A stretch of 64,000 nt of DNA, from the NCBI RefSeq assembly GCF_004346225.1, contig NZ_SMAJ01000011.1, positions 1-64,000 on the forward strand, in the 5' to 3' direction. Each line of letters begins with the position of its first letter. The first letter of the stretch is position 1. This DNA comes from Paralcaligenes ureilyticus (lineage in GTDB: Bacteria; Pseudomonadota; Gammaproteobacteria; Burkholderiales; Burkholderiaceae_B). This document shows positions 37,601 through 51,425 of the stretch, in pieces. A program made the translations under genes and the position numbers. A model generated the notes under the pieces. That model was not told where the DNA came from, made no database searches, and was given only the letters and a program-made list of their open reading frames with translations.

Positions 37601-38512
37601 TCATATCGAGCCTTTTTCCTGTTGTTGCCGCAACCATTTAATAGACCGCCCGCCCAAGGTTCGTTGTAGTTGTTTTTCAGCGTAGTCAATAGCTGCTAAT
37701 AGCCCGAGTAAATTAATATTGGTGTGGAGTCCGCATTGCCTGGCCATTAATACAAGATCTTCTGTTGCCAAATTTCCGGCGGCGCCGGGGGCAAATGGAC
37801 ATCCACCGATACCACCGGTACTGGCATCGAATCTGCGTATCCCAATTTCTAGCGCCGCCCACGCATTTGCTAGCCCCATGCCACGCGTGTCGTGAAAGTG
37901 CACTGACGTTCTCGCAATTGGCACCGTTTGCACAACGGCTGAAAGAAGCTTCTTCACTTCGCATGGTGAAGCCGAGCCAATAGTGTCAGCAATTATAATT
38001 TCGTCGGCGCCAGCGGTATGCATCTTCGCCGACAAACGCAATACCGTGGCCGGCGAAGTTGGCCCTTCAAATGGGCAATCAAACGCTACGGCAATATAGG
38101 CTCGTGTGCGCAGACCTGCGCTTTTAGCTGCGCGTAGAGTCTGCTCGCTCATTTTTGTGGCAGTTTCCAGACTCATGTTGATGTTTTTCTGGTTCATAAT
38201 TTCTGTTGCTGCGAGCACCACTGCTATCTCTTTGACTCCAGCCGCGCAAGCGCGCTCTAGTCCTTTCATGTTTGGCACCAGCACGGAGGCCCGCAAGTTG
38301 GGCAGGTCGATATTTAGCTGGGATATTATGGCGCTTGCATCAGCCATTTGAGGCACATGCTTTGGCGAAACGAAACTGGTCGCTTCGAGGCTTTGAACGC
38401 CGGAGGCAACCAGAAGCTTGATAAGCTCAAGCTTGGCAGAGGTAGCGACCATAATCTGTTGGTTCTGCAAGCCGTCCCGTAGGGCGACATCAGTAATGTA
38501 TAGTTGGTCCAT
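37601..38512 (-). CDS. HMG-CoA lyase-like enzyme
   Basis: This 303-residue TIM-barrel lyase keeps the catalytic set of HMG-CoA lyases: ALRDGLQNQ (metal Asp), VHFHDTRG (metal His pair), the catalytic Cys in GGCPFAPGAAGN and the Asn in the same loop. The family cleaves 3-hydroxy-3-methylglutaryl-CoA or similar tertiary hydroxyacyl-CoAs to acetyl-CoA or pyruvate plus a keto acid. It is the last gene of the minus-strand catabolic island and follows a CoA-transferase gene, a common pairing. Confidence 0.85.
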   Translation of the reverse strand: MDQLYITDVALRDGLQNQQIMVATSAKLELIKLLVASGVQSLEATSFVSPKHVPQMADASAIISQLNIDLPNLRASVLVPNMKGLERACAAGVKEIAVVLAATEIMNQKNINMSLETATKMSEQTLRAAKSAGLRTRAYIAVAFDCPFEGPTSPATVLRLSAKMHTAGADEIIIADTIGSASPCEVKKLLSAVVQTVPIARTSVHFHDTRGMGLANAWAALEIGIRRFDASTGGIGGCPFAPGAAGNLATEDLVLMARQCGLHTNINLLGLLAAIDYAEKQLQRTLGGRSIKWLRQQQEKGSI

Positions 38513-38530
38513 TGTGGATGTCCAAATTGA

Positions 38531-39727
38531 TCACGCGATAGCACCAGTGGCCTGTAGTTGCGCGACCTTCTGTGGCGCATATCCCAAAAGGTCTTGCAGG
38601 ACATCACGAGTATGCTCTCCCAAGTCTGGCGGTGCGGCATATTGCATGTTTTTTGCGGCCGAAAGCTTGATAGGATTACCAGGCATGCGAACCGTTTCGC
38701 CTGTTTTTAGCGACACATTAATTACCATATTGCGAGCTTGAACTTGCGTATCATTAAGCGCCTGTTCAAAATTGTTTACCGGCCCGCATGGAATCCGTGC
38801 AGCTTGCAGCAATTCTAGCCAGTGTTCTGTTGTTTGTTTCTTTAGCTCGTCGGAAATAATTGCATCTATTGTGGTCTTGGCTGCAAAGCGTACCTGCTGT
38901 TGCAGGTATTCTGGTTTTTTCAGCGTGGGCAGATCTAATATTTGCGCAAACTGGGCGAAAAACTGATCTCCTATGCAGGCAATGATGATATGTCCATCGG
39001 ACGTGGGGTAGCAGTTGTAAGGTACATGCACGAAATGGCCGTTGCCTATCATGCTTGGCACGATTCCGGACATCAAATACATAGTTGCCATATAGTTGAG
39101 CAGTGAAATCTGTGAGTCGAGCATGGAAATGTCGACATGCTGGCCCTCGCCTGTCCGATCACGCTGCGCAATAGCGGCGAGAACGCCCATGGCTCCAAAA
39201 ATGCCACCTCCAAGATCTCCGATAGGAATTCCGCTGCGTATCGGGCCGCTCTCACGAGTGCCTGTGATAGACATCCCACCGCCCATGCCCTGTACTACTT
39301 GATCGAATGCCGGGCGTTTAGGGTCGGGTCCTGTTTGACCAAAGCCTGTCACTGAGCAAGTGATGATGCGAGGGTTCACTTTCGATAGGGTTTGGTAATC
39401 AATGCCAAGTCGTTCGGTCACTCCTACGCTAAAGTTGTCGAACACGACGTCTGCCTTCCGTACCAGATCAAGAAACACTGCTTTGCCGATTTCATTTTTC
39501 AAGTCGATGCAGACGCTTTCTTTATTGCGATTTAATGTTAAAAAATATGCTCCCATCCCTTCCCGGGAAAAATTGGAATCATGTTCTTGTAGGCGACGTG
39601 TGCCTTCGCCGGTGATGGGAGGCTCGATTTTTATCGTGCGAGCCCCCAGGTCTGCCAACAGCATGGTTCCATAGGGGCCGGACAGCATATGGGTAAGGTC
39701 GAGTACGACGATATGTTCAAGTGACAA
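38531..39727 (-). CDS. CaiB/BaiF-family (family III) CoA-transferase
   Basis: This 398-residue enzyme has the family start VLDLTHMLSGPYGTMLLADL, the catalytic Asp in HVDISMLDSQ and the typical IKIEPP segment. It moves CoA between carboxylic acids through a glutamyl/aspartyl anhydride. No ATG fits; a TTG at 39727 with GGAG 7 bases upstream is the best start and gives the usual short N-terminus. A TTG at 39754 is the alternative. It probably activates an acid for the adjacent HMG-CoA-lyase-like enzyme. Confidence 0.88.
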   Translation of the reverse strand: MSLEHIVVLDLTHMLSGPYGTMLLADLGARTIKIEPPITGEGTRRLQEHDSNFSREGMGAYFLTLNRNKESVCIDLKNEIGKAVFLDLVRKADVVFDNFSVGVTERLGIDYQTLSKVNPRIITCSVTGFGQTGPDPKRPAFDQVVQGMGGGMSITGTRESGPIRSGIPIGDLGGGIFGAMGVLAAIAQRDRTGEGQHVDISMLDSQISLLNYMATMYLMSGIVPSMIGNGHFVHVPYNCYPTSDGHIIIACIGDQFFAQFAQILDLPTLKKPEYLQQQVRFAAKTTIDAIISDELKKQTTEHWLELLQAARIPCGPVNNFEQALNDTQVQARNMVINVSLKTGETVRMPGNPIKLSAAKNMQYAAPPDLGEHTRDVLQDLLGYAPQKVAQLQATGAIA

Positions 39728-39763
39728 ATCTTGTCTCCAGTAACGAGCAATCAATATGAAGTC

Positions 39764-40588
39764 TCAATTTATAGACAGCAAACGGCGTGCATTACCGCTA
39801 AGAATGGCACGACACTCATCATCGGTAAGGTCGGATTCTAGAATCTCATTTAAAGGAAATGCAGTATTGAATAATTTTGGGAATGAGTAGAAATCAGTGC
39901 CCAGTAACAGTCTATGCGCGCCTATTCGCCGCACGAATATCTCTATCAAATGCGCTACAGAAACCATTACACCCGTATCAAAGATAATATTGGGATGCTT
40001 GTCTGCCAAATAGGGCATCCAGTGTGCGTGGTCGGGTGACGAAAAACCATCAAGTGCGACAAACTGGACTGCCGGAAATCGATCTGCGAGTATTTCGAGT
40101 CGCCAGGGAGACTCGAGCGACGAATCGGCTATAAGATGAATGAATGCAGGAAGAGCATGTTCTTGCAGGCGTCGTAAAAACTTGTCCATCATTGGGTGAT
40201 CAATGGCTGTTCCCTGAAAACGATGATGCCAGACGATACCTTTCATGCCCAACTCGTTTACGCAACGATCTATTTCATCTAATGCTCCATCTCCGTCCAG
40301 CGGGCTAACGGTTCCAACAGCAGCAGGAAATCGGTCGGGGCGCTGGTCGCGGTATTTCGCGACATAATCATTGACTCGACGGGTGGCTTGAATTCCATCG
40401 GGAGCCGAGTATCCGTTAGAGGGCATTAGCATGACCGCAGAGATGTTATTTGCGTCCATGTATGTCAGCCGCCGGGCAATATCGTCTTCCAGTGTTGGTG
40501 CTCGTCCTGTTGACGATCCGGCGACAATGTCTAAAGATCCGACGTGGTGATGAATGTCGAACGCAGAAAAATCACTCAAGTGCCGCAT
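39764..40588 (-). CDS. Amidohydrolase-2 family metal enzyme
   Basis: This 274-residue TIM-barrel protein has the metal motif FDIHHHVG near the N-terminus, HHRFQG and FIHL in the middle and the conserved Asp in LLLGTDFYSF. The family includes decarboxylases such as ACMSD and gamma-resorcylate decarboxylase, C-C hydrolases and lactonases. The ATG at 40588 overlaps the enoyl-CoA hydratase stop (TAATG). It may decarboxylate or hydrolyse a ring-derived intermediate, but the substrate is unknown. Confidence 0.82.
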   Translation of the reverse strand: MRHLSDFSAFDIHHHVGSLDIVAGSSTGRAPTLEDDIARRLTYMDANNISAVMLMPSNGYSAPDGIQATRRVNDYVAKYRDQRPDRFPAAVGTVSPLDGDGALDEIDRCVNELGMKGIVWHHRFQGTAIDHPMMDKFLRRLQEHALPAFIHLIADSSLESPWRLEILADRFPAVQFVALDGFSSPDHAHWMPYLADKHPNIIFDTGVMVSVAHLIEIFVRRIGAHRLLLGTDFYSFPKLFNTAFPLNEILESDLTDDECRAILSGNARRLLSIN

Positions 40589-41349
40589 TATTTCTCCCAA
40601 AATTGGTCGTACTTCGGAGGGCGATGTTCTGTGAACGCACTCAGCCCTTCTTGCCATTCGGCGGGAGGTAGCCTTTTTAGGGTCCCGTCAATTTCGTCCC
40701 AGTCTATGCCGGCATGTTTGTCCAAACTGGTCTTTATCTCTGCAATGGCCCCCGGCGAGGCGCCCGATACGATGCTTTCCGCCAGAGCGATAGCGGTGTG
40801 CGTCACTGCAAGTGAGGGGGTAACCACGTTTACGATGCCAAGCTCGAGTGCTTCCTGCGCTGATATACGGCGACGTGTCAGCATCAGCTCGAGCGCTTTC
40901 CTTCTGCCGACCATGGGTGCGAGCAACGCCAGACCCGTGTTTGGAACGACGCCATGGCCTATTTCCGGTAGCGAAAAACTGGCACTGTCCGAAGCTATCG
41001 CTAAATCGCAACTCAACATAAGCTCAAAACCGCCGCCCAGCGCCATGCCCTGGACGGCAGCTATCACTGGGCGGGGGTATGAGGCGATTCTGCGAAATAG
41101 AGCGCTAGGGTTTGAGTTGGCACTCAGCCCCTCCATCCATCCGCTGCGCAAAAGATCGTCGATATTGGCGCCAGCACAGAAGGCTGGCCCGATTGCCGTG
41201 ATCACGATAGCGCGAGCATTTTGTACAACAGGCTCGTTCAGAATGTTCAGCGTGTCCGTCACGAGCCTCATTGACAGGCTGTTGCGGTCCTCTGGATTGT
41301 TCAGTGTGATGATCGCGATGGATCCACTGAAACGAATTTCAACAGGCAT
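40588..41349 (-). CDS. Enoyl-CoA hydratase/isomerase family protein
   Basis: This 253-residue crotonase has the oxyanion-hole motif GMALGGGFELMLSCDLAIA and the second loop FSLPEIGHGVVPNTG, which carries one catalytic Glu position. It would hydrate an enoyl-CoA made by the acyl-CoA dehydrogenase of this cluster. Isomerase, hydrolase or lyase activity cannot be excluded in this diverse family. It is translationally coupled to the next gene. Confidence 0.88.
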   Translation of the reverse strand: MPVEIRFSGSIAIITLNNPEDRNSLSMRLVTDTLNILNEPVVQNARAIVITAIGPAFCAGANIDDLLRSGWMEGLSANSNPSALFRRIASYPRPVIAAVQGMALGGGFELMLSCDLAIASDSASFSLPEIGHGVVPNTGLALLAPMVGRRKALELMLTRRRISAQEALELGIVNVVTPSLAVTHTAIALAESIVSGASPGAIAEIKTSLDKHAGIDWDEIDGTLKRLPPAEWQEGLSAFTEHRPPKYDQFWEK

Positions 41350-41391
41350 GGCGTCCTTTGTGTCGGTGAATGAGCGTTTGCGATACTAAGG

Positions 41392-42594
41392 TCAATTGCT
41401 TGGGTATACCAATTTGCCATTGGCTTTGCCTATAGGCCAAACTACTTCTTGGCCCGTTTTTCGGTATTGCCAGACAACCAGGTTTTTTTCCGATAGAAGC
41501 TGATGTTTACCGCCACGTTCGGAATCTTTATAAGACACTTGGCCAAAGGGAGTTGCAAATGTGGAGCCATCCATTGCAGTCATCACTTTATTGTGATCCA
41601 GAGTGTTTGCTTTCTTGATCGACTGAATAAGCGTAAACATGCCGGTGTAACCCATGACCAAGGTAGGCAAAACCTTCGTGTTGGCTGGCAAGGCAAGCGT
41701 AATACGCTTTAGAAAAGCGTCAAGCCCTTCAATTTTCTGCTCGGGTGCCCATTCGCCGATGACGGCAATACCATTGCCAAAGTTGCCAAAATCTTCACGC
41801 TTTTCGCCGGCAGCTATGATCAGTGTCAGCTTTGGGTTTATTTTCAGCTCGTGGGCTTGACGTGCAATCTGGATGTTGTCGCCAGAATAGCCAACAAAGA
41901 AGAACACATCGGGATTCAACGCTTTAACACGGTTCAAGATCGGCGATAGGTCAGGGCTGCCTGCTTTAAACGGCTCCTTCATTACGATTTTGTAGCTGGC
42001 TTTCCCTAAATACTCATCGCTGAATTTGACCGCATCCGAGCCGTAGAGGCCGTCTTCATAGGCAATGGCGACTGTTTTTGGGCGAGGCGTTATGCTGTTC
42101 AGGAAAGACGTGACACCCTTTTGGCGCATGTAATCAACAATATAGACGTGGTAATACCATGGTTCAGCTCCGAAGGTTTCTTCCAGTTTTACCGCTGATG
42201 ATCCGACATGGACGAATATAGGCTTGTATCGTTTTACTGCCTGCAGCATGGCAAAATCAGGCGTGCTGCCATAACCACCAACAATGGCGAAAACCTTGTC
42301 CTGGCTCGTCATTTTTGCAGCTATTCCCGCAGCGGTATTGGGTTCACTTTTGGTATCTTCAATGAGCAGCTGAATTTTTCTGCCAAGCACACCGCCTTGC
42401 CCGTTAGCCTCATCAGCAGCGTATTGAATGCCGGCAAGAATCATACGCCCCCCACCAGCTAGAGGCCCAGTCAGAGGCAGCGGAACCCCGATTTTTATTG
42501 GCTCGGAAGCGCTTTGCGCAGAGGCGAAAGGCAGTGCTGCAAACGATAACAGCGCTGCAACTCCCGTTGTTTTAAGAAATTTAAAAATATTCAT
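41392..42594 (-). CDS. Branched-chain amino acid-type ABC transporter substrate-binding protein
   Basis: This 400-residue periplasmic protein has a signal peptide ending FASAQS (about residue 27) and a two-lobe LivK-type fold opening IKIGVPLPLTGPLAGGG. Such proteins in catabolic islands often bind aromatic or branched carboxylates rather than amino acids. The transporter's membrane and ATPase genes follow upstream in the same operon, separated by the DUF35/thiolase pair. Confidence 0.88.
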   Translation of the reverse strand: MNIFKFLKTTGVAALLSFAALPFASAQSASEPIKIGVPLPLTGPLAGGGRMILAGIQYAADEANGQGGVLGRKIQLLIEDTKSEPNTAAGIAAKMTSQDKVFAIVGGYGSTPDFAMLQAVKRYKPIFVHVGSSAVKLEETFGAEPWYYHVYIVDYMRQKGVTSFLNSITPRPKTVAIAYEDGLYGSDAVKFSDEYLGKASYKIVMKEPFKAGSPDLSPILNRVKALNPDVFFFVGYSGDNIQIARQAHELKINPKLTLIIAAGEKREDFGNFGNGIAVIGEWAPEQKIEGLDAFLKRITLALPANTKVLPTLVMGYTGMFTLIQSIKKANTLDHNKVMTAMDGSTFATPFGQVSYKDSERGGKHQLLSEKNLVVWQYRKTGQEVVWPIGKANGKLVYPSN

Positions 42595-42623
42595 GAATAG
42601 TCTCTCCTTGGACGAGTCGGCTT

Positions 42624-43034
42624 TTACAACGTAAAAAACGGTAATTTCTGATTTTCAGTTTCGACAAAAAATACTTTCACCCGATCTCCTATTTTCACTT
42701 GGCTTCTGTCGCCACCAACGAGGCGACTCAGCATGCGTGGCCCCTCGTCTAGATCGATCAGTACAACGGTGTAGGGCAGTTCAGTGTTCCATTCAGGGCC
42801 GAAGAAGGAAACGCGGACTTCAGAAAATGAAAAAATGGTTCCGGTCCCAGCGCTAGGCTCCCAGTCAAGGCGTTGGCCGCCGCAGGCCGGGCATAGGCGG
42901 CGGGGGAAATAGAAGCGAGTGTTGCAATCAGCGCAATGCTGAAGCAGCAGTATTTCTTGGTTGCAGCCGGCCCAAAAGGGGGCGGAGTCGATGGTGGGGG
43001 TGGGGAGTAGCGCTTTATATAAGATTGAACTCAT
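42624..43034 (-). CDS. DUF35 zinc-ribbon/OB-fold protein
   Basis: This 136-residue protein has a rubredoxin-like zinc ribbon (CADCNTRFYFPRRLCPAC, about residues 34-51) and then an OB fold. In the Ltp2 and MaoC systems DUF35 proteins partner thiolase-like subunits and may guide acyl-CoA binding. The ATG at 43034 overlaps the thiolase-like stop by 4 bases, so the two subunits are coupled. Confidence 0.87.
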   Translation of the reverse strand: MSSILYKALLPTPTIDSAPFWAGCNQEILLLQHCADCNTRFYFPRRLCPACGGQRLDWEPSAGTGTIFSFSEVRVSFFGPEWNTELPYTVVLIDLDEGPRMLSRLVGGDRSQVKIGDRVKVFFVETENQKLPFFTL

Positions 43035-44194
43035 ACCGCCTCCAAAGTCATGACGCCGCACACCGAGAAAACACCGCCATTTCCGCTCACGATTGCACGA
43101 CGAGCGTTTGGCACCTGACGCTTTCCCGCCGTTCCGCGTAGTTGATGGACCGCTTCGGTAATGTGCAGCATGCCACCGATGTGGGCTTGAGATAATAGCC
43201 CTCCGTGCGGATTGAGTGGGCAGCGGCCACCCATGCTGGCATGTCCGGCCCGCATGTAATCGCCGCCTTCCCCTGGGCCACAGAAACCTAACGCTTCTAA
43301 TGTGATTAGTACCGATATTGTGAATGCGTCGTGTAGTAGTGCGACCTGTACGTCTTTAACACCAAAACCGGCACTCTCGAATGCATCGTGACCGGCATCG
43401 GCGAAACCCAGGTTTTCGATGTCGGGTATCTGTGTAATTGAATTATGAGTCCCGCGCATCGCCATCGAGCGTACCGTTACGTATTTACAGCCTGCTTTTT
43501 TGGCTCGCGACCGTGTCGTCAGGATAACGGCGCCGCCACCATCAGAAATCAGGCAGCAGTCAAGCAAGCGCAAGGGCGAGCTGATCATGCGACTGTTCAG
43601 GTGGTCTTCGATGCTCATCGCTTTTTTCATTTGAGCATTGTCGTTATTGAGAGCGTGCCTGCGGGTCACGACAGCAACCTCTGCGAGGTCATTGGTTGTC
43701 GCGTTGTATTGGTGCAGATAACGTTGAGCAACGAGGGCGTATGGTGTTAGTAGGCCATGCACACCGAATGGGTCTTCCCATTCTTCGCCGCCCAGCAGGT
43801 TACGCATCGCTAGACCATGTCTGTTGTCGGGCCGGCCAGTTAGTGTATTTTCACCATATACACATGCAGCGACTTCGCAATGGCCCGATTCAATAGCCCA
43901 AATAGCCTGCTGCAGCATGGTCATGCCTGTTACGGTGCCTCCCACGTCTACCGTTGATACAAATTTCAGCTTTAAGCCCAGATACTCCATGAGTGTTGAG
44001 GAAAACATTGAGTTGGGTGTGGCGTATGGGTCGAGGTTTATCAGCCCATCGAGATCGCTTGTGCGAAGCCCGCAGTCGGCCAAAGCCTCTTGCACGGCCC
44101 ATGCCTGGATTTGCACGGCCTGATATCCCGGTAGTTTGCCCACCTGGGTCTCGCCGACGCCGATAATTACGACTTCATCCGAAATGCGTGGCAT
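43031..44194 (-). CDS. SCP2-type thiolase-like protein, probable retro-aldolase
   Basis: This 387-residue thiolase-superfamily protein opens VVIIGVGETQVGKLPG and keeps the late motif CPLNPHGGLLSQAHIGG. The segment that should hold the nucleophilic Cys reads VDVGGTVTGMT instead, so classic thiolysis is unlikely. Its coupled DUF35 partner matches Ltp-type aldol lyases that cut beta-hydroxyacyl-CoAs. I infer retro-aldol side-chain cleavage in this pathway; a condensing role is also possible. Confidence 0.85.
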   Translation of the reverse strand: MPRISDEVVIIGVGETQVGKLPGYQAVQIQAWAVQEALADCGLRTSDLDGLINLDPYATPNSMFSSTLMEYLGLKLKFVSTVDVGGTVTGMTMLQQAIWAIESGHCEVAACVYGENTLTGRPDNRHGLAMRNLLGGEEWEDPFGVHGLLTPYALVAQRYLHQYNATTNDLAEVAVVTRRHALNNDNAQMKKAMSIEDHLNSRMISSPLRLLDCCLISDGGGAVILTTRSRAKKAGCKYVTVRSMAMRGTHNSITQIPDIENLGFADAGHDAFESAGFGVKDVQVALLHDAFTISVLITLEALGFCGPGEGGDYMRAGHASMGGRCPLNPHGGLLSQAHIGGMLHITEAVHQLRGTAGKRQVPNARRAIVSGNGGVFSVCGVMTLEAV

Positions 44195-44204
44195 GTTTGC
44201 TTCC

Positions 44205-44927
44205 CTATAAACCTAAGTAAGCAGTGCGCAAGCGCTCATCGGATAGCACCGTGTTCATAGGACCGGACAGCACGACCTTGCCTTCGGCTAATACGATGCA
44301 GTCGCCGGCGAATTGGGTTGCATAGCCTGCATTCTGTTCAGCCAGAATAACGGAGCATCCGCGCTCGTGTTTTATTTTGCCTAGAGTCTCGAACAGTTCT
44401 TCGACGATGATTGGCGCCAGGCCGGCGGAGGGCTCATCGAGTAGGAGTACGCGTGGCTCGGCCATTAGAGCCCGGCCGACGGCCAGCATTTGTCGTTGTC
44501 CGCCGCTCATCGTTCCCGATATCTGTTGTGCACGTTGTCCCAATATGGGAAAGAACGAGATTACTTCGTCGTAGAGGCGCTTGAACTCAGCACCGTCAAC
44601 GCGCTGATGAGTGGCTGCGAATGTACCGCGCAAATTGTCGTATACCGAGACGTTTGGAAAGCATCTCGCGCCATCGGGTACTAATACAATTCCTTCACTT
44701 GGGAGGCACCATGAAGGAAGACCGCTGAGATTTTTTCCATTCAGGTGTACCTCACGATAAGCCGTATCAACTACGGCTACGAGGCTTCGCAGCGTTGTTG
44801 TTTTGCCGGCCCCATTGGATCCGAGCAGAACCAGCATTCCGCCAGACTCGACAGTCATCGTCACATCTCCCAGCACTGTTAGTTGGCCGTATCGGGATCC
44901 GGAGATTTTTGCAGTGAAAGTGTTCAT
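44205..44927 (-). CDS. LivF-type ABC transporter ATPase
   Basis: This 240-residue ATPase has Walker A LGSNGAGKTT, signature MSGGQRQMLAVGRAL and Walker B LLLDEPSAGLAP. The short C-terminus is typical of LivF. Its start overlaps the LivG stop by 4 bases (ATGA). It powers uptake with LivG, LivH, LivM and the binding protein at 41392. Confidence 0.92.
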   Translation of the reverse strand: MNTFTAKISGSRYGQLTVLGDVTMTVESGGMLVLLGSNGAGKTTTLRSLVAVVDTAYREVHLNGKNLSGLPSWCLPSEGIVLVPDGARCFPNVSVYDNLRGTFAATHQRVDGAEFKRLYDEVISFFPILGQRAQQISGTMSGGQRQMLAVGRALMAEPRVLLLDEPSAGLAPIIVEELFETLGKIKHERGCSVILAEQNAGYATQFAGDCIVLAEGKVVLSGPMNTVLSDERLRTAYLGL

Positions 44928-45655
44928 AACTTGAATCCTTTCCCGAGGTACGCTTCACGGACAGAAGGCGCTGACAGTACATCCTTCGGTTTACCGTCGG
45001 CCAGTAGCTCTCCTTGGTTTAGCACTACAACCCTGTCGCACAGGTTGGCGATAATCGACATAACGTGTTCGACGATCACAACCGTTACTCCGGCAGCATG
45101 GATCCGACGTACGATTTCTATGACGGCGTGTGCGTCCTCATGCGACAGGCCGGCCATTACCTCGTCTAGCAGTAAGACGTCGGGGCCGCATGCCAATGCA
45201 CGTGCAATCTCAAGTCGTCGCAGGTCCGTAATCGAGAGATCTCCACAACGTCGCATTACCACCGGCGAGAGGCCACAGAACTCTGCTATCGACCGTTCGT
45301 CACCTATTCCCGGTGCTAGGTGGCTTTTGCGGCGGACATAAGAGAACGGGACGGAGATCACTTCTTGGACGGTCAGTTGTGGCGGGACGCGCGGAATTTG
45401 ATATGTGCGTGCCAGCCCCATTACAGCAATTTGGTCTGACCGCAGGCCATTAATCTCTTGTGCGCCCAGGCGGACACTACCGGCTGAGGGTGTGAGCTGC
45501 CCTGAAATGGTATTGATCATTGTGCTTTTACCAGAACCATTCGGCCCGATTAGGCCGGTAATCTGACCTCCCGGGAAAGCGATTGAGACGTTGTTCAGTG
45601 CTTTCAGTCCGCCGAATGCGACGGTAACGTTCTCTACCGAAAGATTTGCCTTCAT
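44924..45655 (-). CDS. LivG-type ABC transporter ATPase
   Basis: This 243-residue ATPase has Walker A GPNGSGKST, signature LSITDLRRLEIARAL (a LivG-like variant of LSGGQ) and Walker B LLLDEVMAGLS. Its ATG overlaps the LivM stop by 4 bases. The LSITD form of the signature is unusual compared with LSYGEQ/LSGGQ of many LivG proteins. Confidence 0.9.
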   Translation of the reverse strand: MKANLSVENVTVAFGGLKALNNVSIAFPGGQITGLIGPNGSGKSTMINTISGQLTPSAGSVRLGAQEINGLRSDQIAVMGLARTYQIPRVPPQLTVQEVISVPFSYVRRKSHLAPGIGDERSIAEFCGLSPVVMRRCGDLSITDLRRLEIARALACGPDVLLLDEVMAGLSHEDAHAVIEIVRRIHAAGVTVVIVEHVMSIIANLCDRVVVLNQGELLADGKPKDVLSAPSVREAYLGKGFKL

Positions 45656-46587
45656 TTGGGGTCCTTATGCAGGTGTGCCACGATTTTCTTGAAGAGACCC
45701 ATTAGCCCAGTGGGTAAGAAAAGTACGAACAGAATAATGATGGCACCATAGACAACTTGATAGCCAACACCGCCAATGTAGGCTCGAGCGATTTCTTCTA
45801 TGGCTTTGATTAATAGCGCCCCTAGGATTGGCCCAAGCGTGGTATCCATGCCTCCGAGAATAACGATGGCGAGCGGCAGAACGCTCCAGTTGATAGTGAA
45901 AACATCTGTGGGTACTACATAGCCGTATAAGCCGCCATAGAGCGCCCCGCTTATTCCGGCCAGAACGCCTGATACTGTGAAGACCAGTATGCGTGTGCGC
46001 ACTACGGGGATTCCGCTGGCAGCGGCCAACTCCGGATTTGTGCGGACTAGAAAGAGTGCTGGCCTGAGTCGATCTGACAAAAAATAATCTGAAACCAGTG
46101 CGGCGATCAGCACAAAACCGGTGATGGCGAGTAGTTGAAGTCGCGGGTCACCATCGAGCAGTACGGGAGGCGATAGGCCGCCACTGCCACCTGTCCATTC
46201 TTTGAATACCAATACAAGTACTTGCAGAGACAAGGAGAGGCCCAGTGTCGCAATGGCAAAATACATTTTTCGTAGACGTAGCGTTAAGAGGCCAAGCAGC
46301 ATGGCGACCAAGGCACAGATGATCAAGGTTGCTATCCACGCTAAGAAGATGCCCATAACCGGTGCGAGCAGCCCGACCCCATAGGCACCAAGTCCAAAGA
46401 ATGCAGCCGAGGCTAACGTTACCTGTCCCGTTCGAGACAGGATATCCCAGGCTAGAGCAAGAATTGCCGAGATGAGAACGCCGATAGCGAGCTGTACCCA
46501 AAACGGGCTATTGAAAGAGGCGATGCCTCCGCCGGCGATCGCGATGCTCGCGTAAACTAAAAGGTTCTTTCTGATAGGGAGCTTCAT
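45652..46587 (-). CDS. LivM-type ABC transporter permease
   Basis: This 311-residue membrane protein has about eight hydrophobic helices and a LivM core (SGIPVVRTRILVFTVSGVLAG, GGMDTTLGPILGAL). It overlaps LivG and LivH genes by 4 bases at each side. With LivH it forms the import channel. Confidence 0.92.
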   Translation of the reverse strand: MKLPIRKNLLVYASIAIAGGGIASFNSPFWVQLAIGVLISAILALAWDILSRTGQVTLASAAFFGLGAYGVGLLAPVMGIFLAWIATLIICALVAMLLGLLTLRLRKMYFAIATLGLSLSLQVLVLVFKEWTGGSGGLSPPVLLDGDPRLQLLAITGFVLIAALVSDYFLSDRLRPALFLVRTNPELAAASGIPVVRTRILVFTVSGVLAGISGALYGGLYGYVVPTDVFTINWSVLPLAIVILGGMDTTLGPILGALLIKAIEEIARAYIGGVGYQVVYGAIIILFVLFLPTGLMGLFKKIVAHLHKDPK

Positions 46588-47465
46588 GAACGCAACTCCT
46601 TACCGAATAGCCCAGTTGGCCGAATGAGCAAAACGACCAGAATGATGAGAAAAGCGACTCCATACCCCCAGCTTGCACCTTGCGATACAAAGTTGGCGAC
46701 TACGCCTTCTGCAATTGAAAGCAGAACGGCTCCGATCAATGCTCCAGGAATGCTGCCAAAGCCTGCTAGCGCTATGATGGCAAATGCCCGGATGACAAGT
46801 GCGACGCCAACGTCTGGTTGCACGTAGAGCACCAATGCAACTAAACCACCGGCGATGCCGGCAGTGATTCCGCCGATAACAAATGAAAGACCGAACATCC
46901 GATCCACGTTAACGCCGGCCAGCGTTGCCAAGTCCGGGTCATCGCTAGCCAGACGCAGTTGTATTCCATACTTGGAATAGCGCATAAATATCATAAGTAA
47001 TGCATATAAAACACAACCGACCAGCAGCACGAATGCGTTGTTTCCTGGGATGGTTATTCCAGCGAACTGAATGGTTGGTAGTACCGCGGGCGCGTGCATG
47101 ACACGCGCATCGGGTGTCCAGAGGATGACTGCAAGGTTGACAATAAGTATTGAAAGCCCAAGAGTGGCCAAGATTTGGTTGTGCTCGTCTTGCCGTAAGA
47201 CTTTGGCTAGAAAGCTGCGATATATCAGGATGGAAAATAGGCCTATTATTACGCCCGCGATAAGCATGCCAAAGACTGGTGGCACGCCGTATAGCGTATA
47301 TAAAAAGTAGGTCACGAATGCGCCGAGCATGACAAACTCGCCATGGGCAAAATTGATAATGCGGGTGACTCCAAACTCAATGGCGAGTCCGGAGGCGACA
47401 GCGGCGTATAGCCCTGCTGTGGTCAGCGCGAGTAGTAGTGACTGTACGATGAATGTTGCTTCCAC
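46584..47465 (-). CDS. LivH-type ABC transporter permease
   Basis: This 293-residue membrane protein has the LivH-type opening SGLAIEFGVTRIINFAHGEF and the late GFGSIPGALIGAVLLSIAE loop that contacts the ATPase. It is the first of the four coupled transporter genes livH-livM-livG-livF, 10 bases after the acyl-CoA dehydrogenase stop. Confidence 0.92.
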   Translation of the reverse strand: MEATFIVQSLLLALTTAGLYAAVASGLAIEFGVTRIINFAHGEFVMLGAFVTYFLYTLYGVPPVFGMLIAGVIIGLFSILIYRSFLAKVLRQDEHNQILATLGLSILIVNLAVILWTPDARVMHAPAVLPTIQFAGITIPGNNAFVLLVGCVLYALLMIFMRYSKYGIQLRLASDDPDLATLAGVNVDRMFGLSFVIGGITAGIAGGLVALVLYVQPDVGVALVIRAFAIIALAGFGSIPGALIGAVLLSIAEGVVANFVSQGASWGYGVAFLIILVVLLIRPTGLFGKELRS

Positions 47466-47475
47466 GTGCGTACCT

Positions 47476-48636
47476 TTAGTTGTCTAATACGTGGCGGGCG
47501 ATTTGTAGGCGCTGCATTTCGGAGGTTCCTTCGCCGATACGAAATGCACGCACATCTCTATAAAAGCGTTCGACCGGAAGGTCTGTTGTATAGCCCGCGC
47601 CGCCCATAATTTGCATGACTCTATCGGCGACTCGACCTCCCATTTCACTTGCATAGAGTTTGGCGCGGGAGGCAGCAATTCGAAATTCTGTGCTATCAGA
47701 ATCTGCCAGGTGCGCTGCTTTTCGGTTCAGGAGACGCGCGGCGTCCAGCTCGACATCGCAGTCTGCAACCATAAATTGAATTGCTTGATGGTCGGCCAGG
47801 CGCTTCCCAAAGGTTTTCCGTTCGCGCGTATACGGCAGCGCAATATCCATCAACGCCTGCGCAATTCCTGCGCATTTGGACGCGACCATTAATCGATCTT
47901 TATTGATGGTAGCCATCATGGTAAGAAAACCTTGCCCTGGCTGCCCCAGCATATGTTTGTCGGGCACGAAGCAACTATCCAGTGCTAGCTCTGAAAGCGG
48001 GTGGCCGCGCCATCCCATTGTTTTAAAGCGTCGTAATAGCTTGAGTCCTGGATTTTCACGCTCGACGATAAACGTTGATAAGCGATTTTTGAGAGGTGCA
48101 TCTTTGTTAGTGGCCGCCAGGACTATGATGTAGTCAGCGTGTTCAGCACCTGAAATAAAATGTTTGGTGCCGTTTAATTCCCAACCTCCGCTGACACGCA
48201 TCGCACGGGTGTTGATTGCCGATAAATCCGAGCCAGCAGTAGGTTCAGTTAGCGCATAAGCGATGGTCTTTTCTGCCTGCATCAGTGGCTTTATCAACCA
48301 CTCGCGTTGATTTTCATCAGCAAACCGTAATGAGCCGGGAAGGTGGCCGAATACTTCGCTAAGCGGCATGGATGTATGCCCAATCTCTTCGTCCATGACG
48401 CTTTGCGCGACGGCACTGATGCCTGGACCCCCGAGTTCCCGCGGCATGTTGTAGCCAAACAACCCAATTGATATCGCTTCTTTCTTTAACGCCTGTATCA
48501 CATCGTGATCGACCTCGCCTGTGGCGTCGATCTCAGCCTCTAGCGGGGCTAGTCTCTCTTTGATGAATCGACGCACCGTTTCTGCCAGTAGTTTGTTTTC
48601 ACCCGCATCGCTGAACGTCAACATATCGCCTTCCAT
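47476..48636 (-). CDS. Acyl-CoA dehydrogenase
   Basis: This 386-residue flavoenzyme has the FAD/substrate loop YALTEPTAGSDLSAI, GTKHFISGAEHADY, the late MGGAGYTTDLPVERFYRD and the catalytic-region GEGTSEMQRLQIARH. It would oxidise an acyl-CoA to an enoyl-CoA. GGGAG precedes the ATG at 48636. It is the first gene of the long minus-strand operon, facing the GntR regulator, so the operator at 48674 probably controls it. Confidence 0.92.
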   Translation of the reverse strand: MEGDMLTFSDAGENKLLAETVRRFIKERLAPLEAEIDATGEVDHDVIQALKKEAISIGLFGYNMPRELGGPGISAVAQSVMDEEIGHTSMPLSEVFGHLPGSLRFADENQREWLIKPLMQAEKTIAYALTEPTAGSDLSAINTRAMRVSGGWELNGTKHFISGAEHADYIIVLAATNKDAPLKNRLSTFIVERENPGLKLLRRFKTMGWRGHPLSELALDSCFVPDKHMLGQPGQGFLTMMATINKDRLMVASKCAGIAQALMDIALPYTRERKTFGKRLADHQAIQFMVADCDVELDAARLLNRKAAHLADSDSTEFRIAASRAKLYASEMGGRVADRVMQIMGGAGYTTDLPVERFYRDVRAFRIGEGTSEMQRLQIARHVLDN

Positions 48637-48673
48637 GCATGTCTCCCGAGCTTGTTTTAATTTGTTTAGCCAT

Positions 48674-48695
48674 TGTCCTCTATAATTGTAGGACA
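48674..48695. promoter_or_regulatory. Candidate GntR operator in the divergent catabolic promoter
   Basis: TGTCCT-N10-AGGACA is a perfect inverted repeat centred about 50 bases before the acyl-CoA dehydrogenase start and about 95 before the GntR start. It is the clearest dyad in the intergenic region and the natural site for the adjacent regulator. Confidence 0.5.
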
Positions 48696-48778
48696 GTATA
48701 TATGATAGTATTTGTCTGTCAATTATTGAGAATAAAAATATTCGCAGACCGATTTTTTGAGCAAAGGCGAGGCTAATT

Positions 48779-49480
48779 ATGAATAATCAAGGGCTTCTTT
48801 CCTCCGATGTGTCGCGCGGCGAGGTAGTCAATTTTGTGGTTCAGCATTTGCGGGACGGCATATTTCACGGAAGATTCGCACCCGGACAACGGCTTATCAC
48901 GAGTGAGCTAATGACCGATATCGGCGTAAGTCGTGGATCATTGCGAGAGGCATTTAGTCGATTAGCGGCGGATGGCATAGTCGATCTTGTTCCAAACCGA
49001 GGGGCGGTGGTGCGCAGGCTCTCACGTGTTGAACTGATAAATTTGTTTCGGATACGTGAAGTGCTAGAAGGCCTGGCTGCGCGCCAGGCCGCCGAGGCCA
49101 TAAACGTTGCAGAAAATCGGAGAGTATTTGAAGCCATGTGGGAACGAGCCGGACCTGATGACACTCCTCTAACGGCTACTAGGTTCGCCGAAAAAAATAG
49201 TCTTTTCCATCAGACTCTCGTGACCATCGGTGGTAACGCCCAGCTTGCTGAACTCATCAATAAACTGCAGTTGCCCATGCTAATGCCGCAACTTAGTCGA
49301 GCTCTTACACCCGCTGATATCGAACTGTCGATCGAGGAGCATGTTCCGATTGCGATGGCAATCAAGGCGGCAGATCCGGATGCGGCAGACCAGGCGATGC
49401 AACAACATTTACGCGGGTCATGTTCGCGGATTTTGCGCTTGTCAGGTTCTTTGCTAAAGCCGGAGCCACGGTCCCGTTAA
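48779..49480 (+). CDS. GntR/FCD-family transcriptional regulator
   Basis: This 233-residue regulator has a winged helix (LITSELMTDIGVSRGSLREAFSRL) followed by an FCD domain from about residue 85 with metal-type His residues. It lies between the minus-strand catabolic operon and the plus-strand ligase gene and probably controls both. Its ligand is likely the pathway substrate or a CoA intermediate. Confidence 0.9.
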   Translation: MNNQGLLSSDVSRGEVVNFVVQHLRDGIFHGRFAPGQRLITSELMTDIGVSRGSLREAFSRLAADGIVDLVPNRGAVVRRLSRVELINLFRIREVLEGLAARQAAEAINVAENRRVFEAMWERAGPDDTPLTATRFAEKNSLFHQTLVTIGGNAQLAELINKLQLPMLMPQLSRALTPADIELSIEEHVPIAMAIKAADPDAADQAMQQHLRGSCSRILRLSGSLLKPEPRSR

Positions 49481-49541
49481 GTGGGAAAAACGTTGACGGA
49501 GCTGCAAAAAAGCCCGCATAAATTTACCAAAGGGAGAAAAA

Positions 49542-51098
49542 ATGATATTGGGTGAGGTGTTCGAACGAAATGCAGCTCATTATGGTCAGTCGCCTGCTAT
49601 TTATTATGAAGACAGGGTCATTACCCACGCTGAGTTTTTGAACAGGGCCTATCGCCTGGGTAACGCTTTACAGAACCTGGGTGCGCGTAAGCAGGATCGA
49701 GTTCTCATCTTGGCGCAGAATTGTCCTGAGTTTTTGGAACTGAATTGCGCGTGTAGCCTGACCGGCCTGATTAGTGTTGGGCTTAATTATCGACTTGCCG
49801 CGAGCGAGCAGCTGCATATTATCAATGATTGTTTGCCTGCAATCTGGATATTTGAAGAGCAGTACTCAGAGCGTGTGGCAGAAATTTGTGAAAAACTCTC
49901 AAGCGTACCGCAGCTAATTTGTATTGGCAGAAAAAATGCGAAGGACGGCTGCGACTACGATGAATTGCTGGCGCGGTCGTCTGGCGATAAGCCAGCCTTA
50001 AGGGCTATAGAGCAGGATATTGTATTTCTGGTTTATACCAGCGGTACGACGGGGCACCCCAAAGGAGTAATGCAGACCCATGCGGCTCAGATAGAACAGG
50101 CAAAAATAACGTCAAATGCCTGTGCCGCCACTCCGATAGATCGAGTGCTGATGGTGATGCCCTTCTATCATGCCGGAGCACCTAATATTTATCTTGGGTA
50201 TGCATGGGCCGGCGCTTCGATAGTGCTGCTCCGCGCTTTTGATGTGAAGGTTATCTTCGCTAATTTTGCGCGTCATCGGGTTACGGCGGCGCTGCTTGCC
50301 CCTGTCATGATTCAAATGTTGCTAGATGCTCCGGAAGAAATACGAAACGGGCCGAATTATTTAAGTTTAATTGTTTACTCATCGGCCCCGATGCCTGTTC
50401 CTCTTCTTAAGCGAGCAATTGCACAATTTGGCTCTATTTTTGCGCAGGCCTACGGAATGACTGAATGCTTGGTCGGCTCTTTTATGTACAAACATCAACA
50501 CAGGCTTGATGGCGCTCCTGATGAGGTGAAGCGGCTGGCTTCGGCAGGCCAGCCTTATTTTGGCTGCAATATTGTTGTGCGTCGCTCGAATGGGAGTGCT
50601 TGCGAAGTGGGCGAAGTGGGCGAAGTCACCATTAATAGCCCTGCCACTATGCACGGCTACTGGAATAATACGCAGGCGACCCTTAGTGCTATTCGAGACG
50701 GCTGGTACTTCACCGGCGACCTGGGCTACTTTGACAATGAGCATTACCTGTTTGTGGTTGATCGCAAAAAGGACATGATCATCTCCGGCGGTGAGAATAT
50801 ATATTCTCGCGAGGTTGAAGAGGCGTTATTAACGCATCCATCGGTCTTTGAAACCGCCGTAATAGGCATTCCCGATGAAAAATGGGGGGAGTCCGTAATG
50901 GCTTTCGTTGTATGTCGTAACGGAGAGCCGGAAGCGAGCGAATTAATCGAGCACTGTCAGATGCATATCGCTAGCTATAAAAAACCTAGGGTTGTCAAGT
51001 TTGTAGAGGCGCTTCCGCGTGTAGCCAGCACAAATAAGGTAGATAAAAAGAGACTTCGGGCACCTTATTGGAACCTTGACCAGCAAGCGGGTGTTTAA
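49542..51098 (+). CDS. AMP-dependent acyl-CoA synthetase
   Basis: This 518-residue adenylate-forming enzyme has the P-loop VYTSGTTGHPKGVMQTH, the A5 region AQAYGMTE, the A7 GWYFTGDLGYF, the A8 hinge DRKKDMIISGGENIY and the A10 lysine in NKVDKKRL. It activates a carboxylic acid to its CoA thioester at the cost of ATP and is the likely entry step of this pathway. GGGAG lies upstream of the ATG; the gene follows the regulator by 61 bases. Confidence 0.92.
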   Translation: MILGEVFERNAAHYGQSPAIYYEDRVITHAEFLNRAYRLGNALQNLGARKQDRVLILAQNCPEFLELNCACSLTGLISVGLNYRLAASEQLHIINDCLPAIWIFEEQYSERVAEICEKLSSVPQLICIGRKNAKDGCDYDELLARSSGDKPALRAIEQDIVFLVYTSGTTGHPKGVMQTHAAQIEQAKITSNACAATPIDRVLMVMPFYHAGAPNIYLGYAWAGASIVLLRAFDVKVIFANFARHRVTAALLAPVMIQMLLDAPEEIRNGPNYLSLIVYSSAPMPVPLLKRAIAQFGSIFAQAYGMTECLVGSFMYKHQHRLDGAPDEVKRLASAGQPYFGCNIVVRRSNGSACEVGEVGEVTINSPATMHGYWNNTQATLSAIRDGWYFTGDLGYFDNEHYLFVVDRKKDMIISGGENIYSREVEEALLTHPSVFETAVIGIPDEKWGESVMAFVVCRNGEPEASELIEHCQMHIASYKKPRVVKFVEALPRVASTNKVDKKRLRAPYWNLDQQAGV

Positions 51099-51281: not shown

Positions 51282-51425
51282 CAGGTGAACCTGGTTATGG
51301 TGCAAATGGATCAGGTTACTCAGCAAAACGCCGCCCTGGTGGAAGAGGTGTCTGCCACGGCCGGTTCGCTGCAAGATCAGGTGCAGCATTTGGCGCAGGC
51401 TGTGGCGGTATTCAGAATAAATTAA
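51282..51425 (+). pseudogene. C-terminal remnant of a methyl-accepting chemotaxis protein
   Basis: Translation gives a run with MVQMDQVTQQNAALVEEVSA and LAQAVAVFRIN before a TAA stop. This is the classic MCP C-terminus that follows the signalling tip, but only about 47 residues remain and nothing upstream continues it. The stop and last helix are intact while the body is missing, so it is a deletion relic. Confidence 0.75.

Follow-up and report, generated by a model that had tools for sequence, protein, structure and literature searches.

A gene island of Paralcaligenes ureilyticus predicted to import and degrade a beta-branched carboxylic acid

Which carboxylic acid is consumed by the gene island at positions 37601-51098 of a 64,000-nucleotide stretch of Paralcaligenes ureilyticus DNA (contig NZ_SMAJ01000011.1, here called the window), and by what chemistry? 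We consider it an even call that the island serves the uptake and breakdown of an acid branched at the beta carbon, by retro-aldol cleavage. Gene content, conserved active sites and a thiolase fold without its cysteine support two proposals of an initial annotation of the window, namely that this is a block of catabolic genes with an importer and a regulator of its own and that ligase, dehydrogenase, hydratase and retro-aldolase follow one another in it.

The island has 14 genes, twelve in a minus-strand operon and two on the plus strand. The twelve are given first below, in the order in which they run from 48636 down to 37601; their spacing of -70 to +42 bases makes a single transcription unit likely. 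The regulator and the ligase lie on the opposite strand from 48779 onward. Ligase, dehydrogenase, hydratase, thiolase/DUF35 pair, coenzyme A (CoA)-transferase, lyase, amidohydrolase, LIV importer and regulator were all recovered in the places first assigned to them, and the GntR regulator proved to be of the GntR/FCD type. The description of the two units as a facing pair of operons has to be corrected, as they lie back to back and diverge from a shared region at 48637-48778. Percentages in the list refer to the related loci discussed further below.

47476-48636, minus strand: acyl-CoA dehydrogenase, short-chain type (PF00441/PF02770/PF02771; catalytic glutamate kept, IGEGTSEMQ; short-chain acyl-CoA dehydrogenase among the PDB relatives)
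46584-47465, minus strand: ATP-binding cassette (ABC) transporter permease, LivH type (76% identical in L009)
45652-46587, minus strand: ABC transporter permease, LivM type (74% identical, order kept, in L009; assigned by position and homology to annotated LIV permeases)
44924-45655, minus strand: ABC transporter ATPase, LivG type (67% identical in L009)
44205-44927, minus strand: ABC transporter ATPase, LivF type (64% identical in L009)
43031-44194, minus strand: thiolase-fold protein without nucleophile, proposed retro-aldolase (PF22691 1e-46; Ltp2 2e-56, Sal 3e-55, BbsB 5e-41)
42624-43034, minus strand: DUF35 / ChsH2-type partner with Zn-ribbon and OB-fold (PF01796 2e-19, PF12172 3e-10)
41392-42594, minus strand: periplasmic binding protein, LivK type (PF13458 E=8e-51)
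40588-41349, minus strand: enoyl-CoA hydratase, crotonase family (PF00378 E=4e-51; both catalytic glutamates kept in an alignment with three relatives)
39764-40588, minus strand: amidohydrolase_2 family enzyme (PF04909 E=8e-25; HxH motif kept, usual beta6 His replaced by Asp)
38531-39754, minus strand: class III CoA-transferase, CaiB/BaiF (PF02515 E=3e-124; full-length matches to human succinate--hydroxymethylglutarate CoA-transferase, SUGCT, 2.5e-76, and YfdE, 1.9e-77)
37601-38512, minus strand: 3-hydroxy-3-methylglutaryl-CoA (HMG-CoA)-lyase-like enzyme (PF00682 E=2e-52; NF004283 330 bits against a cut-off of 246; best PDB match human HMG-CoA lyase, 7e-76; RD, HFHD and GGCP...GN motifs kept)
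48637-48778, no strand: divergent intergenic region (promoter-like site 48722-48695; imperfect inverted repeat 48673-48735)
48779-49480, plus strand: GntR/FCD transcriptional regulator (PF00392, PF07729)
49542-51098, plus strand: acyl-CoA ligase, AMP-forming (PF00501 7e-71, PF13193 6e-21; 63-69% identical in L009, L011 and L018)

Two starts call for comment: the DUF35 reading frame opens at 43061, its likely start being 43034, which overlaps the stop of the thiolase-fold gene, and the amidohydrolase frame opens at 40657, with an alternative start at 40588 that overlaps the hydratase stop.

The proposed retro-aldol stage

A branched beta carbon, for example a ring or tertiary carbon that bears an acetic-acid arm, precludes the usual beta-oxidation to a 3-ketoacyl-CoA. 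In the first stage that we propose, and which we regard as being as probable as not, the acid would be imported through the Liv-type ABC transporter, ligated to CoA by the ligase (49542), dehydrogenated between the alpha and beta carbons by the dehydrogenase (47476) and hydrated to a tertiary 3-hydroxyacyl-CoA by the hydratase (40588). The thiolase-fold/DUF35 pair would then make the retro-aldol cut, giving a ketone and probably acetyl-CoA (or propionyl-CoA). For steroids it is established that a thiolase-fold enzyme with a DUF35 partner cleaves a tertiary 3-hydroxyacyl-CoA in a retro-aldol reaction (PMC12502768); for ibuprofen, ipfDE are reported to release propionyl-CoA by retro-aldol chemistry (PMC9195938).

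The C-terminal part of the dehydrogenase (RIGEGTSEMQ) holds the usual catalytic glutamate, a base that is kept in five loci, while both glutamates of the hydratase are kept in four loci and its C-terminal EW(Q/R)EG...FW signature is common to the relatives. The roles of these residues in the two families are well established. No 3-hydroxyacyl-CoA dehydrogenase was found among the island genes; together with an intact hydratase and the missing thiolase nucleophile, this makes a first stage with a retro-aldol cut the best supported.

In a MAFFT alignment, the nucleophilic cysteine of the FadA-type thiolase of the same genome falls near glycines G85-G86 of the thiolase-fold protein, which bears out its first description as a Cys-less thiolase; Ltp2 and Sal, in the segments aligned with it, likewise have no such cysteine at this place. 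Among characterised relatives, the Ltp2-ChsH2 and Sal-Shy (DUF35) aldolases rank by sequence ahead of BbsB and ordinary thiolases, and the DUF35 gene, which overlaps the thiolase-fold gene, adjoins it in all relatives read. The predicted structure (predicted local distance difference test score 72, predicted template modelling score 0.80) matches the thiolase superfamily broadly. Its ten best matches include Sal-Shy (9myr; Z 40.5, root-mean-square deviation 3.3, 372 residues aligned) and Ltp2-ChsH2 (6ok1; Z 39.9, deviation 2.7, 354 aligned), with about 32% identity to Ltp2 and Sal in the structural alignment; archaeal thiolases and BbsB are also among these ten, so that the fold alone does not discriminate between aldolase and thiolase.

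The bbs operon, like the island, has a dehydrogenase, a hydratase and a CoA-transferase, and it makes its ketone via a hydroxyacyl-CoA dehydrogenase. The latter enzyme is absent from the island. Benzoylsuccinyl-CoA thiolase BbsAB (7pxp) resembles the island pair in combining a thiolase fold with DUF35 and in its HDAFT motif, whereas the NCBIfam scores of the island proteins are far below both equivalog cut-offs (BbsB 167/750 bits, BbsA 31/250 bits). The thiolase-fold protein and its partner are proposed here as a retro-aldolase.

Related loci

Four of 268 family genomes, this one included, carry the thiolase-fold gene (E <= 1e-120), and among 399 genomes of the order it is present in this one only; at E <= 1e-112 the dehydrogenase was found in this genome only among 369 genomes of the class, and no other copy of the amidohydrolase in 268 family or 398 phylum genomes. 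Exact peptide patterns, which let divergent copies escape, were also run against 84,980 species genomes; they picked out one locus in Chloroflexota (38% identity) and four in betaproteobacteria (66-79%).

Locus L009 has the ligase and, in the order of the island, dehydrogenase-LivHMGF-thiolase-DUF35-LivK-hydratase, at 55-79% identity. Beyond this core, a TctC-type receptor and a protein of the aconitase family come first in the next 7.5 kb, a stretch in which amidohydrolase, CoA-transferase and lyase have no orthologue. Loci L018 and L020 keep the ligase with dehydrogenase-thiolase-DUF35, L018 having as extra neighbours an alpha/beta hydrolase, a CoA-transferase (38%), MaoC and short-chain dehydrogenase/reductase genes; the GntR/FCD regulator is not found between ligase and dehydrogenase in L009 or L018. 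In L011 the ligase adjoins thiolase-DUF35, and in both L011 and L012 a citryl-CoA-lyase-like gene lies near that pair.

An Ochrobactrum plasmid (L023) carries the dehydrogenase (52%), hydratase (45%), amidohydrolase (53%) and ligase (40%), with electron transfer flavoprotein (ETF) and a citryl-CoA-lyase-like gene, and is devoid of thiolase/DUF35. Paraburkholderia L035 and Variovorax L037 have the dehydrogenase, the hydratase and a citryl-CoA-lyase-like gene, together with distantly related ligases. Dehydrogenase and hydratase orthologues (44-56%) thus accompany a citryl-CoA-lyase-like enzyme in these three loci, where a retro-aldol-type lyase again follows hydration. The recurrence of the genes as an overlapping, mixed-and-matched set points to one chemistry, in which the substrate would be dehydrogenated, hydrated and cleaved without oxidation. 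As judged by these comparisons, the conserved unit is a ligase-dehydrogenase-(hydratase)-thiolase-fold-DUF35 core, and in related loci the second lyase gives way to a different tail or to a citryl-CoA-lyase-like enzyme. The search for the conserved gene set in other genomes, as first suggested, thus recovered the core; the tail of amidohydrolase, CoA-transferase and HMG-CoA-lyase-like enzyme is not in the nearest relatives.

The citryl-CoA-lyase-like gene of the Paraburkholderia and Variovorax replicons belongs to a conserved operon with dehydrogenase, ligase, thioesterase and hydratase (L035 9310-20219, L037 11980-16768), and the vicinity in L035 also has RidA, major facilitator superfamily, flavin reductase, ETF and aldehyde dehydrogenase genes. 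Elsewhere in the P. ureilyticus genome, the search for a citryl-CoA-lyase-like gene gave only a 29% match.

Several observations weigh against the retro-aldol proposal. The Ltp2 tyrosines 294 and 344, presumably important to that enzyme and read from the alignment as Y294/Y344, are both histidines in the island protein, H288 (HDAFT) and H338 (SQAHIGG); this brings it nearer to BbsB and thiolases, and its chemistry may differ from that of Ltp2. Sal has a tyrosine at the first of these positions and a threonine opposite the second, so the tyrosine pair is not constant within the Ltp2/Sal group either. The hydratase orthologue is missing from L018 and L020 (a MaoC gene is nearby in L018). Since L011 and L012 hold both a citryl-CoA-lyase-like gene and thiolase/DUF35, the two are not simple substitutes. 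Lastly, the part given to the amidohydrolase is a guess; its Ochrobactrum counterpart (L023 16070-16909) has an asparagine at the usual beta8 aspartate (LLGTNYYS) and may not be an ordinary metal-dependent hydrolase.

The proposed second stage and competing routes

Downstream of the retro-aldol cut, an exchangeable second stage would deal with the ketone. A short dicarboxylate would arise when the amidohydrolase hydrolyses the ketone or something derived from it; the CoA-transferase would activate this dicarboxylate from succinyl-CoA, and the HMG-CoA-lyase-like enzyme would split the activated dicarboxylate into acetyl-CoA and an oxo acid; we offer these details tentatively. The lyase scores above the PRK05692 subfamily cut-off (330 against 246 bits) and has the active-site motifs, and it adjoins the CoA-transferase, human HMGCL and SUGCT being respectively among the best solved relatives of the two. 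This likeness suggests a short dicarboxylate intermediate, the specificity itself not being readable from sequence. The island pair resembles the SUGCT and HMG-CoA lyase pair in setting transferase beside lyase and differs in being embedded in another operon. Further pairs of this kind lie in the same genome (L030 7596-9813 on contig C17, L031 1891-4001 on C30), and the two other pairs are merely 40-41% / 32-33% identical to that of the island, so they were rejected as recent duplicates. The amidohydrolase copy on the Ochrobactrum plasmid is coupled to the hydratase; a relative in Embleya (40%) was set aside as context, being surrounded by unrelated genes.

In an alternative that seems unlikely, a 3-substituted glutarate or related short dicarboxylate (e.g. 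3-methylglutarate) would be degraded directly, with activation by the ligase or CoA-transferase, dehydrogenation and hydration to an HMG-CoA-type product, the main cut by the HMG-CoA-lyase-like enzyme, and an oxo acid left to the thiolase-fold/DUF35 pair. Such a route would suit a CoA-transferase close to human SUGCT, a lyase that is nearest human HMG-CoA lyase and exceeds the NCBIfam cut-off, and a dehydrogenase of short-chain type. However, orthologues of lyase and CoA-transferase are missing from L009, L018 and L020 and hence are not core, and the thiolase-fold enzyme is without the cysteine required for acetoacetyl-CoA thiolysis.

Considerably less probable is 2-oxindole-3-acetate (oxidised auxin), or another ring-acetate beside a carbonyl, as the substrate, which would undergo ligation, exocyclic dehydrogenation, hydration to a dioxindole-type CoA ester, retro-aldol cleavage to an isatin-like dicarbonyl and hydrolysis by the amidohydrolase. 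A tertiary alcohol beside a carbonyl could be cleaved by a citryl-CoA-lyase-like enzyme and an aldolase alike, and the two swap or co-occur in related loci. Like the island, the iad auxin-degradation locus (PMC12633357, PMC9613470) has an ABC binding protein and a ligase followed by a thiolase-annotated protein, IadF and IadG, by which removal of the acetyl arm has been proposed (PMC12633357). Yet the island has neither the Rieske oxygenase nor the formamidase of iad, nor any indole oxygenase, isatin or anthranilate gene; the HMG-CoA-lyase-like enzyme and CoA-transferase are left unexplained, and a number of the nearest loci are from aquatic metagenomes and not from root bacteria. Rieske oxygenase and thiolase-fold matches in three family genomes yielded no assignable iad locus.

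A steroid or bile-acid side-chain module is the most improbable substitute. Kinship of the thiolase-fold protein with Ltp2 and Sal speaks for it, but identity to them is just the 32% or so given above, and the island is without a DUF35-fused MaoC hydratase, a two-subunit dehydrogenase and ring-degradation genes.

The likeness to the Ltp2-ChsH2 and Sal-Shy aldolases (PMC12502768, PMC11321319) concerns the Cys-less thiolase fold, the DUF35 partner, the dehydrogenase and hydratase acting beforehand and the retro-aldol removal of a CoA-bound fragment, predicted in our case. Compared with them, the island has a stand-alone DUF35, a crotonase-type hydratase, a single-subunit short-chain dehydrogenase, the two histidines, its own Liv importer and no steroid genes. 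The ipfDEF genes (PMC9195938) share a ligase and a thiolase-type retro-aldolase with it and differ by ring dioxygenation in place of dehydrogenation and hydration. The Castellaniella monoterpene (mrc) pathway was rejected as a match, as its ring opening is BadHIK-like and neither a thiolase nor DUF35 appears in the paper, and so was a dicarboxylate study by randomly barcoded transposon sequencing (RB-TnSeq), which makes no mention of HMG-CoA lyase, CaiB or DUF35. For the KF-1 sulfophenylbutyrate genes, no thiolase is named for the relevant step in the passages found, and a literature search on the Ochrobactrum strain and on the enzyme combination gave nothing relevant. The steroid, ibuprofen and iad systems share the idea of retro-aldol or acetyl removal, and none has the gene set of the island. 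That it matches no named pathway, as first noted, still holds: no homologue of the whole set with an assigned pathway was found in the genome collections and literature searched, most subscription papers being beyond that search.

Promoter, borders and wider meaning

The 142-base region between the divergent units has a promoter-like site (TTGACA-16-TATACT) upstream of the dehydrogenase, lying within the imperfect inverted repeat. This near-consensus site is a candidate promoter for the long operon by its position and closeness to consensus, not by the number of such sites (11 across the region, 17 expected in shuffles), and the GntR regulator would act at the divergent promoter.

Has the island been acquired as one block, as was first suggested? 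Its lower third-position GC stood up to measurement (14 genes, 0.44-0.60, mean 0.53; 26 flanking genes, 0.58-0.79, mean 0.71; Mann-Whitney P = 3e-7). A palindromic repeat family of the TGTAGCGGCACCCCTTGTGGGTGCCA type is dispersed over the window in about 19 copies (e.g. 5961, 13110, 28283, 36677, 37451, 53630), and its reported absence from the island was confirmed, with zero copies over the roughly 16 kb between 37484 and 53630. Copies do stand at both borders (nearest 36613, 36677, 37451 and 53630, 54500), yet they have no special meaning, as the repeats are scattered throughout; it is the 16 kb gap that carries information. No tRNA was found at the borders, and a scan of flanking genes revealed no recognisable integrase or transposase. 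Five other family genomes also keep the left-flank M20 gene; in the four of them that were read, no right-flank gene is near it, so that an empty site could not be shown. Composition and rarity thus favour acquisition as a block, which is supported but not proven.

Beside the island, a short open stretch at about 51285-51420 (plus strand) reads, by eye and unscored, as the C-terminus of a methyl-accepting chemotaxis protein (QVTQQNAALVEEVSATAGSL) and is likely a gene remnant at the right border. Directly to the left, a PIN-domain protein (PF01850; 36714-37163, minus strand) is possibly a member of a toxin-antitoxin pair.

At its most general, and only speculatively, the island may represent a new aerobic route for non-steroid compounds that carry an acetic-acid arm on a tertiary or ring carbon. 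A dehydrogenase, a hydratase and a DUF35-type retro-aldolase would take off this arm, and an interchangeable second lyase (HMG-CoA-lyase-like with CoA-transferase, or citryl-CoA-lyase-like with ligase) would finish the product. The strategy would be a general one, by which aquatic and plant-associated bacteria deal with beta-branched acids. The repeated exchange of the second lyase offers a handle on substrate identity. Should the core act as proposed, the shortening of beta-branched acids by retro-aldol cleavage would be a transferable module that extends beyond steroids and ibuprofen, and knowing it would make it easier to annotate orphan clusters of this kind and to track branched and alicyclic acids in water.

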